From assembly GCA_016649995.1 (NCBI GenBank), contig JAENWJ010000011.1, positions 1 through 42,708 of the forward strand: 42,708 nt of DNA. The letters run 5' to 3'. Source of the DNA: Peptostreptococcaceae bacterium (GTDB lineage Bacteria; Bacillota; Clostridia; Peptostreptococcales; BM714). Each line of letters begins with the position of its first letter. Within the stretch, counting starts at the first letter, position 1. This document shows, piece by piece, positions 7,815 through 42,445 of this stretch. The translations under genes and the position numbers were made by a program. The notes beneath the pieces were generated by a model, which was given only the letters and a program-made list of their open reading frames with translations, was not told the DNA's origin and did no database searches.

Positions 7815-7861
7815 CTGAGCCGGGCAATCGACAAAAAGCAAGGCATGGCCATGCTTTTACG

Positions 7862-7945
7862 AATCCCCTGTCCTTTTGCCTGAGAGTTTCACCATTTACG
7901 GCTTTCCCCTTCGGCGCTCTTTTTAGAGTCTCTCCAGAGGTCTGT
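7862..7945 (-). promoter_or_regulatory. Glycine riboswitch aptamer
   Basis: The minus strand carries the conserved glycine-aptamer blocks in order: CTGGAGAGACTC (about 7938-7927), GCGCCGAAGGGG (about 7918-7907), then AAACTCTCAGGCAAAAGGACAG (7889-7868, quoted here as two linked motifs: AAACTCTCAGG and CAAAAGGACAG). Only one full aptamer is seen. The 35 nt upstream (to about 7980) end in CCGGACAGA, which might be a vestigial partner aptamer. A terminator hairpin follows at 7787-7814, giving a transcriptional switch for the ACT-UPF0210 genes. By analogy with gcv switches, glycine would turn expression on. Confidence 0.9.
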
Positions 7946-8085
7946 CCGGAACCGGTTGCCAAGTAGGCTTCCGACACCTTCATCCAAACGCTATTTTATT
8001 TATAATAATGATACTAACACAAACAAATAATGCAAACAATACTTTGCTCGATATATTCTATTTTAATTTTTTCTCATAAAAAGAA

Positions 8086-14597: not shown

Positions 14598-14885
14598 AAC
14601 TCCCGTCCTCGAAACATGTCATTGACATATTTCGGGGACGAGAGTTATTCTCGCGTTACCACCCCGGTTTGCTAACTGCTCACGCAGTAAGCCTCTTCAG
14701 GTCGCAGACTTTCATCTGTTAACCCTAGCCATGTAACGGTGGCACTCCGCTTTCACGGATCCGTCCTCGCCTACTCGGTTTCCCTTTAGGCTTGGAAGCT
14801 CGGGAGTGATTAGTATATATCCGTTTAGACCTCGGCTCTCAGCACCCACCGATTCTCTGTAATCTTATATTGAATATTTTTCTCT
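14598..14885 (-). promoter_or_regulatory. T-box leader of the ilv operon
   Basis: The minus strand shows a T-box core GGGTGGTAACGCG (about 14652-14664) and a terminator whose 17-nt arms (14598-14614 and 14630-14646) have few mismatches, followed by six T. Upstream is a long Stem I region with AGAGAATCGGTGGGTGC and, on its 3' side, ACTAATCACTCCCGAGC. The likely specifier is ATC (14808-14810, isoleucine), which fits the genes controlled; a leucine reading (CTA) one register away cannot be excluded by eye. Uncharged tRNA would pair with the TGG bulge and prevent termination. Confidence 0.92.
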
Positions 14886-14925
14886 CCGTCAACGCTTTTA
14901 TTATTTTTTTTTTGATTTGAAACCA

Positions 14926-35674: not shown

Positions 35675-35833
35675 ATGAATACAGACCCCTCACTGCAAGA
35701 TTTGATTGACGATTTTCAAAACATGAAGAACGAAAATCTTGTTCCTTGTTTTTCCACCATGGAGCCAAGGTTTTTGGACTATATACACAATAAGCTTTTC
35801 ACGGCCGGAACAAACATGATAGTTATCAAATGA
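35675..35833 (+). CDS. Small 52-residue protein of unknown function
   Basis: A soluble peptide MNTDPSLQDLIDDFQNMKNE followed by LVPCFSTMEPRFLDYIHNKL and ending TNMIVIK. It has AAGGAG 8 nt upstream, a good promoter and a following terminator, so it looks like a complete expressed unit. No family is recognised with confidence. The end in a hydrophobic strand (MIVIK) could mean it is the front of a longer nucleotide-binding protein that was cut short, e.g. before a P-loop; this is a guess. No cysteine pair and no membrane segment. Confidence 0.6.
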   Translation: MNTDPSLQDLIDDFQNMKNENLVPCFSTMEPRFLDYIHNKLFTAGTNMIVIK

Positions 35834-35859
35834 AAATTAAAGTACCATGTTCAATCTGT

Positions 35860-35897
35860 AAAGAGCATTGCACCCTTCAAGGATGCAGTGCTCTTTT
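35860..35897 (+). terminator. Terminator of the small gene
   Basis: Arms AAAGAGCATTGCA (about 35860-35872) and TGCAGTGCTCTTTT (35884-35897) with one wobble; an inner CCTT/AAGG adds to the stem. It is 27 nt past the stop. Confidence 0.75.
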
Positions 35898-35927
35898 GTA
35901 TGATTGTAAATTAATCGGGGACGGTAC

Positions 35928-35956
35928 TTGACAAATGTTTTATTTTGATGTATTTT
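35928..35956 (+). promoter_or_regulatory. Promoter of the RAYT-like / redox operon
   Basis: Consensus -35 TTGACA (35928-35933), 17 bp, -10 TATTTT (35951-35956), 19 nt before the start codon. The preceding GGGGACGG (35917-35924) recalls a motif seen beside Y1-transposase genes in many bacteria. Confidence 0.6.
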
Positions 35957-35974
35957 ATAACTGAGGTGATTGCC

Positions 35975-36718
35975 ATGGCAAGAAAGGCGAGGGAAAAGGT
36001 TCCCTTCGGGACATATCTCGTTCAACAATCCTGCGTCGAAGGCAAAAACATATTCGATTCCGATACCGACCGACATAATTTCCTCGAAATATTGCAGGAA
36101 AAGAAGGCTCAATTTCAATTCAAGGTATACGGATATTGTTTGGCGGACAAGCAGGCTTACAAGCTTGTGCTTTATGACAATGGAAGCGACATTTCAAAGA
36201 TCATGAAGTCGATCAATATAAGTTATGCCTATCGCATGAGGAATCGGGGCAAGATTTTTAGGGGGCGCTATAGAAGCACATTGATAAAATCTCCGGAAGA
36301 TCTTCGCATTGTTCTGAATACATTGCACGGAGAAAAACCTTGTTGCGACTATTGGTCCGCCATAACCGACACCCTTTTGGATAGCGACATATATTTCACG
36401 CCCGGCAAGAGCAATAGGGAAAGTGTAATGATTTATGACACTGAAACGGGCGAGATTTGCCTTGACGTCAATCCGTCGTGCAAGGACAGGACCGATTGCA
36501 TCCGTACCTTGGACCAGGGGATGAAATTGCTGAAAGCTGCAGCAAAGGTTCATGGCCTCACCCTTGAGCAATTTCTGTCGAACAAGCAACTCAGAAACAG
36601 CGAACTTCTTAATTTCAGAAAAATGACGACCCTTTCTCTCAAGGAAATAGGCACCCTTTTCGGGGGGCTCGGGGAATCAGCCGTATGCAAAATCATAAGC
36701 CGAAACATGGGAAAATGA
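35975..36718 (+). CDS. RAYT-like (REP-associated, Y1 transposase family) protein with degenerate active site
   Basis: A 247-residue protein. Residues 1-115 follow the IS200-like/RAYT transposase plan (MARKAREKVPFGTYLVQQSC, ENIF-like KNIFDSDTDRHNF, then SINISYAYRMRNRGKIFRGRYRS). But the HUH metal site, normally N-H-V-H, reads KQAYK (Q60, Y62), and no typical catalytic tyrosine is seen in the helix after it. The C-terminal domain (about 190-247) ends LSLKEIGTLFGGLGESAVCK, a helix-turn-helix like that of DnaA C-terminal or RAYT tails. So it probably binds DNA but does not cut it. ATG 35975 follows GAGGTGA. The redox genes follow after 12 nt. Confidence 0.78.
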   Translation: MARKAREKVPFGTYLVQQSCVEGKNIFDSDTDRHNFLEILQEKKAQFQFKVYGYCLADKQAYKLVLYDNGSDISKIMKSINISYAYRMRNRGKIFRGRYRSTLIKSPEDLRIVLNTLHGEKPCCDYWSAITDTLLDSDIYFTPGKSNRESVMIYDTETGEICLDVNPSCKDRTDCIRTLDQGMKLLKAAAKVHGLTLEQFLSNKQLRNSELLNFRKMTTLSLKEIGTLFGGLGESAVCKIISRNMGK

Positions 36719-36730
36719 AGGGAGAAAAAA

Positions 36731-37699
36731 ATGGTATTGGATTTTAATCTAAATGGCGCTGCAAAAGCAAAAGGGCTCGACACAGAAAGGCTTTACGATG
36801 CAATAATAATCGGAGGCGGCCCCGCAGGGCTCAACGCCGCATTGTATGCAAAGCGCAAGGGCTTGAATATTGGAATAATTGCAAACCACATAGGCGGGCA
36901 GGTAATGGACACCTCCTCCGTCGAAAATTATCTCGGATTCAAAAACCTCTCCGGTCAGGATTTGATGCATAGATTCGAAGAACATTTAAATGAATACGAT
37001 ATTCCGACAACGACGGGAACTCTGGTTCAATCCATTGAAGATGGTAAAGACTTTAAAAAAATCCACGCAGACAATGGAAAAATATACAAGGCAAAATCAA
37101 TCATTGTTTCCACCGGCAGCAAACCAAGAACACTGGGCGTACCCGGCGAAAAAGAATTCATGGGCAAAGGGGTAGCATACTGCGCGATATGCGACGGACC
37201 GCTTTTCTCAGGCCTGGATGTAATCGTCTCCGGCGGCGGAAATTCTGCCGTTGAAGCTGCAATCGACCTTGCAAAGATAGCCAGCACTGTCAAGATTGTT
37301 CACAGAAGCCAATTCAGGGCGGACCAAGTTCTCATAGACAGACTAAAGCAACTTGAGAATGTTGAGATTTATCTTCAAACTGAAATAAGGGAAATCCGCG
37401 GCGAAAGGCTGCTCACACACATTGTTGCCTTCGACAAAAATGAAGGTAAGGAAATTGAAATCGCCACAAACGGTCTTTTCATAGAGATAGGTTACCTTCC
37501 AAAGAGCGAAGTCTTTGAGGGATTACTTGAAATGAACGAAAGAAAAGAAATTATTGTCGACAGAAAAGCAAAAACAAGCACCGAAGGAATTTTTGCAGCA
37601 GGGGATGTTACCAACGGCGATTACAAGCAAATAATACTATCGGCAGCAGAAGGCGCAACGGCCGCACTAAGCGCAAACGACTATATAAACAAGCTTTAA
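36731..37699 (+). CDS. Thioredoxin reductase-like FAD/NAD(P) disulfide reductase
   Basis: A 322-residue flavoprotein of the TrxB/AhpF type. FAD motif IIGGGPAGLNAALYA at residues 26-40, GIIANHIGGQVMDT (about 48-61), redox-active CAIC at about 155-158, NAD(P) motif VSGGGNSAVEAA (about 172) and the FAD-closing AAGDVTNGDYKQ (about 290). The first 20 residues are an extra polar lead. It begins 12 nt after the RAYT-like gene with GGGAG. Together with the next gene it resembles clostridial reductase/glutaredoxin pairs (AhpF-type split systems) that pass electrons to peroxidases or other disulfides. Cofactor choice (NADH or NADPH) is not clear. Confidence 0.88.
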   Translation: MVLDFNLNGAAKAKGLDTERLYDAIIIGGGPAGLNAALYAKRKGLNIGIIANHIGGQVMDTSSVENYLGFKNLSGQDLMHRFEEHLNEYDIPTTTGTLVQSIEDGKDFKKIHADNGKIYKAKSIIVSTGSKPRTLGVPGEKEFMGKGVAYCAICDGPLFSGLDVIVSGGGNSAVEAAIDLAKIASTVKIVHRSQFRADQVLIDRLKQLENVEIYLQTEIREIRGERLLTHIVAFDKNEGKEIEIATNGLFIEIGYLPKSEVFEGLLEMNERKEIIVDRKAKTSTEGIFAAGDVTNGDYKQIILSAAEGATAALSANDYINKL

Positions 37700-37728
37700 A
37701 ACAAACCCAAAAATGGAGGATTATTAAT

Positions 37729-38370
37729 ATGGCTTTTTTAAATGAAGATATCAGCAAGCAAATCAAGGCAGTTTTTGCACCAATGAAAGAAAATGTGAAC
37801 ATCGCTCTATTCGTTGACAAAACTGGCTGCGAATCCTGCGAAGACGCCCGTGGATACATGGAGGAAATGGCCAGTCTCAGCGATAAGCTTTCGCTATCAG
37901 TCTACGATGTTGCCCGCGACAAGGAAAAAGCCATGGAATTTGACGTAAAGCTTACGCCTGCGATTGTCCTTCTTGACAGCGAAAACAAGAACAACGGAGT
38001 GAAGTTCAACGGAATCCCTGCTGGCCATGAGATAAACTCTTTCATATCAGGCATATTGAATGTATCTGGAGCCGGAGAAAAATTGCCGGAGGAAATGATG
38101 CAAAGAATCAAAAGTATAGACAAACCTGTAAACATTAAGGTCTTCGTAACCTTGGGCTGCCCGCATTGTCCGGGTGCCGTGTCAAAAGCCCACAAAATCG
38201 CTCTTCTAAACCCCAATGTGAATGCAGAGATGATTGAAGCCAACACCTTCGAAGAACTTTCCCAAAAGTTCAATGTCGGCGGGGTTCCTAAAATCGTCTT
38301 CAATGACAGTGTCGATCTTATAGGCGACCAGCCTTTGGATGCGTTCATAAATGCAATGGAAACCCTTTAG
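37729..38370 (+). CDS. Two-domain thioredoxin-fold disulfide oxidoreductase (PDO type)
   Basis: A 213-residue protein with two thioredoxin-like halves: CESC at residues 34-37 and CPHC at 144-147, each after a beta strand (ALFVDKTGC, KVFVTLGC), and the cis-proline turns VKLTPAIV and VGGVPKIV. This is the protein disulfide oxidoreductase / AhpF N-terminal type. It is the natural electron acceptor of the flavoprotein 30 nt upstream. GGAGG precedes ATG 37729. Cytoplasmic, no signal peptide. Final acceptor unknown. Confidence 0.88.
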   Translation: MAFLNEDISKQIKAVFAPMKENVNIALFVDKTGCESCEDARGYMEEMASLSDKLSLSVYDVARDKEKAMEFDVKLTPAIVLLDSENKNNGVKFNGIPAGHEINSFISGILNVSGAGEKLPEEMMQRIKSIDKPVNIKVFVTLGCPHCPGAVSKAHKIALLNPNVNAEMIEANTFEELSQKFNVGGVPKIVFNDSVDLIGDQPLDAFINAMETL

Positions 38371-38443
38371 AAACGTTTTTTTAGAAAAACAATTCGTCAC
38401 TATTAAAGCAGATACAACTTTATGTAATATATAGAAGAAAAGA

Positions 38444-38475
38444 GCCTTCGCAAATCACCCCGCGAAGGCCTTCTT
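38444..38475. terminator. Terminator of the redox operon
   Basis: Perfect 8-bp stem GCCTTCGC (38444-38451) and GCGAAGGC (38462-38469) followed by CTTCTTTTT on the plus strand, with a partial lower stem. It lies between convergent genes. Confidence 0.75.
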
Positions 38476-38516
38476 TTTATGAGTCAACAATAATCCCGGA
38501 ATATTCTTGCGCCATT

Positions 38517-38991: not shown

Positions 38992-39402
38992 TTAATAGTT
39001 TTTAGCAATAAATTCGCCAAGGTCTTCCAGGCGGCATTCCTCGCTTTTCATATAATGTTTAGCAAAAGCGGCAGTATATTTAAGTCCGCTCCCGGTAATA
39101 ATGCAAACAACCCTGTCGTCATCTGAAAGCACTCCAGTCTCTTTGAGTTTTTTCACAGCCGCAATCGGAACCGCAGAAGCCATGTTCCCGGTAGAAACCG
39201 TCCCTATTCTTTTATATCCGAGTTTAAGCGCATGTTGCAATCCCACATATGTTCCTCTGTCCTTAAACGACCATGTCGGATTTTGACTTTCATTCTTAAA
39301 ATACAACTTATCAACACCAACAACGTCCGCTAGTCTCTCTGTTTCAACTAGCCCGGTAAATCCTTCATCTAGTGATACTCCTTCATCAACGCTTAAGAAC
39401 TT
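38992..39402 (-). pseudogene. thrC: Threonine synthase relic with in-frame internal deletion
   Basis: A 136-codon remnant that parallels the intact thrC at 41222-42445. It keeps the [18 protein letters not shown] segment, the PLP-lysine block [14 protein letters not shown] and [11 protein letters not shown], then jumps directly to [14 protein letters not shown] and the normal C-terminus ([11 protein letters not shown]...). About 215 residues of the middle and about 45 of the zinc-ribbon N-terminus are missing. The reading frame is intact across the jump. With no start codon and no active domain it should be non-functional. Confidence 0.85.
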
Positions 39403-40776: not shown

Positions 40777-41238
40777 TTATTTTTTGATTTTTACGATTAG
40801 TTCAATTTCTACGGCTGCGTTTCCAGGTAATGAGTTAACACCTATAGCTGACCTTGCATGTTTTCCAACTTCTCCAAAAATCTGCTCCAATAATTCAGAT
40901 GCACCATTTATAACTAGAGATTGTTCAGTGAAATCTTCACAAGAATTTACAAAACCTGTCATTTTTACAATTTTCTCTATGTTGTCCAAATCGATTATAA
41001 TATCTTTTATAGCACTAATAGATCTTAATACGCAAAGTTTTGAAGCTTCATATCCTTCAATTGTAGACAAATCTCTTCCTAGCTTTCCTTTGTATACTAA
41101 ATTCACTCCATCTTTGGGAGTTTGCCCCGATACATATATATACTCCCCACACTTAACTGCCGGGACATATATTGCACCCGGTTTTGGCGACAACGGAATA
41201 TTGATTTTCAATTCCTTTAGTCTATTTTCTATTATCAT
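40777..41238 (-). CDS. RidA/YjgF family enamine deaminase-like protein
   Basis: A 153-residue RidA-family protein: YVPAVKCGEYIYVSGQTPKD at the start, central VLRSISAIKDII and KMTGFVNSC, and an end with HARSAIGVNSLPGNAAVEIE. The family arginine in HARSAIG binds the carboxylate of enamines such as 2-aminoacrylate released by PLP enzymes. It is longer than classical RidA (about 128) by an N-terminal lead, like the YjgH/Rid subgroups. It overlaps thrC by 17 nt and has AAGGGG at 9 nt. In this place it would clear enamines formed by threonine-related PLP enzymes; inference. Confidence 0.88.
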   Translation of the reverse strand: MIIENRLKELKINIPLSPKPGAIYVPAVKCGEYIYVSGQTPKDGVNLVYKGKLGRDLSTIEGYEASKLCVLRSISAIKDIIIDLDNIEKIVKMTGFVNSCEDFTEQSLVINGASELLEQIFGEVGKHARSAIGVNSLPGNAAVEIELIVKIKK

Positions 41239-42445
41239 TTTTTATCCCCTTAATTACGCTAGATAGATCTTCTATATCGCAATCAATAGTATTCAGTTTA
41301 TGTTTCTCAAAAACAGCTGTGTATTTCAATCCACTTCCTGTCACAATACAAACAACTCTATCGTTTTCATTTAAATAATTTTGCTTCTTTAATTTTTTTA
41401 CGGCAGCCAATGGAACCGCAGATGCTGGCTGAATAAAAATACCTTCCCTTGCTAGAATCCCCTGCGCATCTATTATTTCTTCATCTGTAACACTAACTGC
41501 GATTCCTCCATTTGCTTTTAGCATACGAAGAATTTGATTGCCGCTTGGTGGATATGGGTTTTCAATAGCATGAGCAATTGTATTGGGATTCTCAACTTTA
41601 TTAACCACTTCGCGTCCATCTTCATAAGCTTCAGCAATAGGAGAACATCCCTTTGCTTGCGCACAAATTATCTTTGGGATTTTATCTATTAAACCACAAT
41701 TTTTAAATTCTCTGAATCCCTTTTCTATACCTCTTGTATTCCCGCCTGAACTGGTTGGCACAACTACATAATCCGGCATATTAAAATTAAGTTGTTCGCA
41801 AATTTCAAAAGCAGCAGTTTTTTCGCCCTCAACCCTAAAAGGAACATCTGAATTCATAAAGTATATATCATTCTCTTCTCCAATTTTATAACTTTCCAAA
41901 TAAATATCATCATAATTCCCATTGATTTTTAGAAGATTAGGATTGTATATCGCTATGGGATTTATCTTTTCAGTAGGTATACCTTCTTTTACAAAAATGA
42001 ATGTTTCTAAATTAGATTTGCTGCCATAAGCAGCTACCGACGGTGCCATATTCCCACTTGAAACAGTTCCTATTCTTTTAAAACCAAGTTTTATGGCATG
42101 TTGTACTGCTGCTACAGTCCCTCTATCTTTAAAAGACCATGTAGGATTTTGACTCTCATTTTTAAAATAAAGCTCTTTAATGCCTATTTTATTAGCAATA
42201 TCCGGAGATTCAGTAAGAGCTGTAAATCCTTCTCCTAAAGATATTCCCTTGGTTAACTCCAGAAATGGAAAAAAATCAGAATATCTTTCTAGCGTATTTT
42301 GGCTGAGTGTATTGCCTTTAGTAATTTTTCCTGTTTTTACCTCTTCTAGTTCCAATGGTTCATTGCAAATATCACATCGGAAATTTATTTTTTTTATTGA
42401 AAATTCTTTACCACATTTTGTACAATTAAGCTTTATATTTTTCAT
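41222..42445 (-). CDS. thrC: Threonine synthase
   Basis: A 407-residue fold-II PLP enzyme that turns O-phosphohomoserine into threonine. N-terminal zinc ribbon with C8-x2-C11 and C24-x2-C27, PLP lysine in [10 protein letters not shown] (about 104), phosphate loop VPTSSGGNTRGIE (about 240), and tail [13 protein letters not shown]. The GC content is clearly lower than in genes left of 38 kb. The group also holds threonine-synthase-like lyases, so another beta-replacement or elimination cannot be excluded; the linked hom gene argues for threonine synthesis. ATG 42445 follows GAGGGGG at 8 nt. Confidence 0.88.
   Translation of the reverse strand: MKNIKLNCTKCGKEFSIKKINFRCDICNEPLELEEVKTGKITKGNTLSQNTLERYSDFFPFLELTKGISLGEGFTALTESPDIANKIGIKELYFKNESQNPTWSFKDRGTVAAVQHAIKLGFKRIGTVSSGNMAPSVAAYGSKSNLETFIFVKEGIPTEKINPIAIYNPNLLKINGNYDDIYLESYKIGEENDIYFMNSDVPFRVEGEKTAAFEICEQLNFNMPDYVVVPTSSGGNTRGIEKGFREFKNCGLIDKIPKIICAQAKGCSPIAEAYEDGREVVNKVENPNTIAHAIENPYPPSGNQILRMLKANGGIAVSVTDEEIIDAQGILAREGIFIQPASAVPLAAVKKLKKQNYLNENDRVVCIVTGSGLKYTAVFEKHKLNTIDCDIEDLSSVIKGIKNDNRK

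Follow-up and report, generated by a model that had tools for sequence, protein, structure and literature searches.

Probable control of a thiol-redox operon in Bacillota by a domesticated RAYT transposase and its terminal repeat

Background

Why should a transposase protein that has lost its catalytic residues lead an operon of thiol-redox genes? The question is raised by a stretch of 42,708 nucleotides from a Peptostreptococcaceae bacterium (hereafter "the window", meaning the whole stretch), in which a first-pass annotation had noted a RAYT-like gene with its own promoter, followed after 12 nt by a thioredoxin reductase-like gene (TrxR), then by a two-CxxC protein disulfide oxidoreductase gene (PDO) and a terminator, and had proposed that the RAYT-like protein was tamed into a DNA-binding regulator, perhaps redox-linked. 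We think that the whole is probably best explained by a domesticated transposase and its terminal repeat acting as the autoregulator and operator of this operon, a reading that we derive from comparison of sequences.

Results

The features described by the annotation are all present. The gene leading the operon (35975-36718, plus strand) encodes a RAYT/Y1 protein of 247 aa, called "dead" below; it is separated by 12 nt from the gene of an AhpF-type thioredoxin reductase-like flavoenzyme with a CAIC active site (36731-37699, same strand), which precedes the PDO gene (37729-38370, plus strand; the two CxxC are CESC and CPHC). A sigma-A type promoter, TTGACA-17-TATTTT (35928-35956, plus strand), overlaps the predicted operator discussed below. 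The operon ends with a terminator-like hairpin and T-run (38443-38480, plus strand; the hairpin was scored on the minus strand, and the plus strand likewise ends in CTTCTTTTTA), and another hairpin with a T-run, read directly in the sequence (35859-35896), sets it apart from the preceding region. Just 5' of the operon lies a small ORF of about 52 aa (35676-35833, plus strand) with its own promoter, TTGTCA-17-TATAAT. Rfam gave no RNA element within the operon; in the rest of the window it gave, both on the minus strand, a glycine riboswitch aptamer upstream of leftward genes (7858-7947) and a T-box leader before leftward ilvC/ilvB-type genes (14631-14901). A short ORF (38992-39306, minus strand) resembles a threonine synthase from which a large internal part has been deleted, the intact paralogue being at 41222-42445 (minus strand).

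The fold of the leading protein is that of a Y1 transposase. It passes the Pfam cut-off for Y1_Tnp (24.3 bits, cut-off 23), and scores below those for the DnaA-type helix-turn-helix, HTH (Pfam, 20.1 bits, cut-off 31.5) and for the NCBIfam equivalog REP_Tyr_transpos (20.4 bits against 80). A sequence search of the PDB, with the single protein and with a profile, found no Y1 relative and just weak HTH matches. An AlphaFold2 model built from 50 sequences (pLDDT 84.9) has as its best Foldseek match in the PDB 4er8, a RAYT-REP hairpin complex, followed by IS200/IS605 transposases. The protein consists of a Y1 core (about 1-120), a cysteine-bearing linker (about 121-178, where the model is less confident at about 121-175) and a C-terminal HTH (about 215-245), the latter ranking with the most conserved portions of the family.

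The annotation had correctly noticed the loss of the HUH histidines, which it placed at Gln60 and Tyr62; alignment with four further RAYTs of the same genome, all with an intact HxH, corrects the HxH positions to Ala61-Tyr62-Lys63. The catalytic tyrosine of the YxxxNP motif is lost as well (position 116 is Thr), and none of 50 relatives has Tyr there. His is kept at position 63 in 26 of the 50 family members, and two (L077 and L091) have His at 61 yet Asp at 63; both histidines occur together in none.

A scan of genome contigs with the single sequence gave no match; rerun with the alignment over 84,980 species, it gave 60 related loci. The annotation had asked whether the linkage to trxB-like and PDO genes is conserved among homologues with the same Q-x-Y change, and among HUH-less homologues it is: 52 of the 60 loci precede a TrxR gene on the same strand, these being all the HUH-less homologues (52/52, Tyr-less too), and the eight loci without TrxR all have HUH. 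Fifty of the 52 also have a PDO gene, one of the others being at a contig end (L048) and one without PDO (L102). In L102 (282-1952) RAYT and TrxR share one open frame of 556 aa, with no PDO downstream; the two may be fused, or the frame may lack a stop and contain an internal start. Loci from the genome searches show the same division when re-scored with the 50-sequence profile: all proteins at or above 225 bits were without HUH, and those below about 207 bits had HUH and YxxxNP, except L025 (no matched HUH). Similarly, among the genomes of 60 relatives, all 11 full-length orthologues have trxR directly 3' on the same strand, followed by pdo in 10 (the eleventh, in G001, is cut inside trxR by the contig end). 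Proteiniclasticum ruminis has an orthologue, and Acidaminobacter hydrogenoformans and Fusibacter are among the cultured carriers.

A separate, order-wide survey of 394 genomes started from the other end of the operon. Dead RAYT genes were found upstream of 33 of the 37 standalone PDO genes over cut-off; the other four comprise two contig ends (G057 and one copy in G178), one operon split by an IS (G129) and one PDO gene truly without it (G072). This last genome, which has trxR-pdo with neither RAYT nor motif, is a point against the regulator reading. In G129 two identical genes for a 474-aa transposase (L140, L141) sit at the break between dead RAYT and trxR-pdo, and the split is apparently IS-mediated. 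By the coordinates of the 394 genomes, fused AhpF-like PDO halves (below the cut-off, in open frames of more than 500 aa) have no dead RAYT neighbour.

The partner genes can be placed more precisely. The TrxR matches the NCBIfam model for AhpF (TIGR03140) over model positions 203-512 with 352.6 bits, below the cut-off of 502.9, and thioredoxin reductase (TIGR01292, TRX_reduct) with 320.7 bits, below the equivalog cut-off of 343; AhpF is also its best PDB match, and by sequence we classify it as AhpF-C/TrxR-like. The PDO, with two Trx folds and two CxxC, passes TIGR02187 (243.4 bits, cut-off 185), and among its relatives in the PDB are 1a8l and 2hls, both protein disulfide oxidoreductases. We rejected the idea that the operon is the sole source of TrxR, a separate TrxR over cut-off being encoded elsewhere in the genome. 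The same genome also encodes (L165, 1387-2103) a peroxiredoxin whose active-site motif, DFTFVU, contains an in-frame TGA; this is likely a selenoprotein, and plausibly a client of TrxR/PDO.

Could the leading gene simply be a decaying transposase that stands beside redox genes by chance? Its catalytic residues are indeed gone. Comparison of close pairs, though, shows the RAYT to be under purifying selection: its dN/dS is about 0.04-0.2, close to the values for trxR and pdo or somewhat higher. In the tree, a single branch with a support of 100 sets all the dead proteins apart from the others; the tree was a quick one with some long branches, and a single origin of this clade is supported rather than proven. 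The spread of this clade over many genera, its invariant partner genes and a near-invariant operator also contradict decay, and random neighbours, frameshifts and isolated redox genes, which the annotation had named as what would refute its proposal, were looked for and not found. We therefore give decay almost no credence.

The predicted operator, GGGGACGGTACTTGA, lies at 35917-35931 (plus strand), its last bases being the start of the -35 box. The feature drawn by the annotation begins exactly at the first operator base, 35917, and the conserved element itself goes unmentioned there. Of 53 orthologous upstream regions, 48 contain GGGGACGGTACTTGA with at most two mismatches, and 27 of these copies are exact. 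Four mismatches are found in three copies from Erysipelotrichaceae, the L062 copy lies inside a mis-called ORF start (the frame begins LGTVLEF, which fits GGGGACGGTACTTGAATTT), and L077 has the sole poor copy. By inspection, the operator overlaps the -35 box in 52 of the 53 regions: its TTGA end is the -35 start, and the -10 box follows at 16-18 nt across the orthologues. Since the orthologous proteins can be as low as 27-30% identical to the window protein, the operator DNA is kept far better than a bare promoter. An HTH, even if weak, together with a conserved cognate site in the gene's own promoter is what one finds in a sequence-specific regulator.

Among the 394 genomes, exact GGGGACGGTACTTGA occurs in 30, adjoining dead RAYT in 28 and lying close to contig ends (reached about 120-300 nt later) in two. 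The window genome has a single exact copy, two-mismatch copies being at or below control level, and we count this single operator against our interpretation. Within the scope of an open library, we found no paper with the motif string GGGGACGGTACTTGA, nor one that treats RAYT together with thioredoxin reductase.

Where the element comes from is suggested by the nearest intact relatives, in which GGGGACGGTTCTTGA, one base different from GGGGACGGTACTTGA, stands inverted on both sides of the gene. These terminal inverted repeats (TIRs) are clear in L090, L100 and L107, have a variant end in L092 and are partial in L094-L096; some can fold hairpins around a GGGGACGG tract (L096, L092, L107). Moreover, at least 29 of the 52 dead loci retain a second copy, in inverted orientation, in the gap that separates RAYT from trxR. 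In short-gap loci, the window included, this second repeat is lost; the window has the upstream copy only, and differs in this from RAYTs flanked by repeats on both sides, the TIRYTs (Di Nocera 2013), some of which carry a GGGGWSAS tract (PMC3733652). The element here departs from this consensus at one position. From the match with the TIRs and the retained second copies, the best reading of the operator is that it was once an end of the transposon itself, an old terminal inverted repeat. As the two repeats flank the RAYT gene alone, we rejected the notion that they serve to move the redox genes. A TIR-like inverted pair of AGGGACGGTTCTTGA, about 30 nt apart, occurs in another genome (L160, near 5080, in G370); it is possibly a miniature element of the intact RAYT family.

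This origin bears on two other explanations. The first is that another host factor reads the element, with the RAYT either a passenger or a partner to the TrxR protein. A physical partnership is suggested by the single RAYT-TrxR frame of L102, but intact relatives of this very RAYT carry the element as their terminal repeat and, in the 394-genome survey, the exact element is found just where dead RAYT occurs or contigs end; we regard this explanation as very improbable. The second, which we find improbable to a slightly lesser degree, is that single-stranded DNA or RNA is still the target of the protein, which would bind TIR-derived sequence (such as the inverted copy in the trxR leader) for post-transcriptional control. 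The Y1 core of known relatives (4er8) is a single-strand hairpin binder, and the inverted copy is in the trxR leader of those 29 or more loci. Against this, the second copy is absent from the window and some 20 other loci, which keep the one at the -35 box, the HTH is among the best-conserved regions, and the hairpin potential of some intact TIRs has mostly gone (mean DNA z of -1.36 in 11 intact against -0.26 in 47 dead loci, a difference driven by a few strong hairpins).

We conclude that the protein is very probably a dedicated DNA-binding regulator of the RAYT-trxR-pdo operon; the operator predicted here and its origin in a transposon end bring strong support to the "tamed" regulator of the annotation.

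What the regulator might respond to is less certain. At least three linker cysteines are present in 45 of 50 dead proteins, C175 being kept in 45 of 50; Erysipelotrichaceae have a reduced set, and some intact RAYTs have three or four cysteines there. The argument for sensing from these cysteines is of moderate strength, and we see an even chance that they sense thiols or metalloids. In genus g88 the operator may have spread to other genes. The RAYT promoter of this genus carries the variant GGGACGGAACTTGA (in G154, GTGACGGAACTTGA twice, 22 bp apart), and other -35/-10 promoters have GGGACGGAAC, or in G154 GTGACGGAAC, at the same position. The genes behind these promoters encode an SBF-family transporter (G187 and G169), a small Fer4 ferredoxin (G187) and permeases of the ArsP_1 family, whose genes are split (G154); a CoA-disulfide-reductase-like gene (G187) has the site in the form GGGACGCAACTTGA. 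That species-specific variants match between sites is expected from a shared trans-acting factor; this set of sites came from inspecting motif matches and was not predicted beforehand.

Two of these genes could point to a thiophilic metalloid, and not disulfide stress, as the signal, with an arsenic-type responsive regulator and TrxR/PDO as repair, since the SBF protein has ACR3-like similarity (two species) and the permease genes are of the ArsP_1 family (one species). We find this rather doubtful: the other extra sites precede the ferredoxin and the CoA-disulfide reductase, the scores behind the ACR3 and ArsP assignments fall short of curated cut-offs or hardly exceed them, and one genus only is concerned. 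The "redox-linked" character of the regulator is suggested by the operon, the cysteine cluster and these extra sites in one genus.

Discussion

Our scenario is as follows. A TIR-flanked RAYT (of the TIRYT/TIRtron kind, with a C-terminal HTH) would have been fixed 5' of a trxR-pdo pair in an ancestor of the Bacillota concerned. HUH and the catalytic tyrosine would then have been lost, and the DNA-binding fold kept together with the RAYT's own terminal repeat, already provided with a TTGA end resembling a -35 box. The dead protein would bind GGGGACGGTACTTGA across the -35 box of its own promoter and control RAYT-trxR-pdo, most likely as an autorepressor. Oxidation of thiols, or a thiophilic agent, acting on the conserved cysteine cluster between core and HTH would probably release the repressor and so raise the TrxR/PDO disulfide-reducing system.

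We consider repression reasonably likely. Activation is the less likely alternative: the protein would bind just 5' of and over the -35 box and help RNA polymerase. The site abuts and overlaps the -35 box as class II activator sites do, this box often reads TTGAAT in place of the full consensus, and an activator next to or over it would leave nearly the same footprint as a repressor. On the other hand, the promoters of many members are close enough to consensus to need no activator, and the site overlaps the -35 hexamer itself. Repression remains our preferred reading.

In its fullest form the proposal is that a Y1 transposase and its terminal repeat were converted jointly, and once, into regulator and operator, were kept with a thiol-redox operon over large distances within Bacillota, and were extended in one genus to further redox and transport genes, forming an undescribed family with a cysteine-based sensor; we hold this to be somewhat more probable than its contrary. 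It would offer a concrete bacterial case of a selfish element turned regulator, in which living genomes hold the ancestor-like state (TIR-flanked intact RAYT), an intermediate (dead protein, both repeats) and the derived state (dead protein with a single repeat, now merged with the -35 box). It would also provide a predicted control site and regulator for the TrxR/PDO system of many anaerobes, and gives grounds to revisit "inactive" transposases dropped by surveys as pseudogenes.

Relation to known systems

The closest known proteins are the HTH-bearing RAYTs (TnpA-REP class 2, subclass 2.1), with which the dead family shares the Y1 core fold and a C-terminal DnaA/HTH-like domain (PMC6006769, PMC3733652), and its intact sisters are TIR-flanked as TIRYTs are (PMC3733652). 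It differs from them in lacking HUH and YxxxNP, in being fixed beside trxR-pdo and in having mostly one exact upstream site per genome, the TIR having become a promoter element. The dead clade would be absent from the tree of the 2018 RAYT survey, because this tree was limited to sequences with HuH and Y motifs (PMC6006769). Compared with AhpF, the window TrxR and PDO correspond to that protein divided over two genes, the PDO having one CxxC more; compared with PDO/TrxR thiol systems and AhpF in general, the genes here are separate and headed by a dead RAYT. The TldR proteins are nuclease-dead in origin. These TnpB-derived RNA-guided transcription factors (follow-up in PMC13418256) are likewise a bacterial transposon nuclease tamed into a regulator. 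They use TnpB and a guide RNA, whereas the dead RAYT is a TnpA-type Y1 protein that would recognise, with no guide RNA, its own ancestral transposon end. Finally, Spx, OhrR, HypR and RsrA are thiol-based redox regulators of bacteria; the dead RAYT would resemble them in mode if its cysteine cluster is a sensor, its fold and origin being unrelated to theirs.
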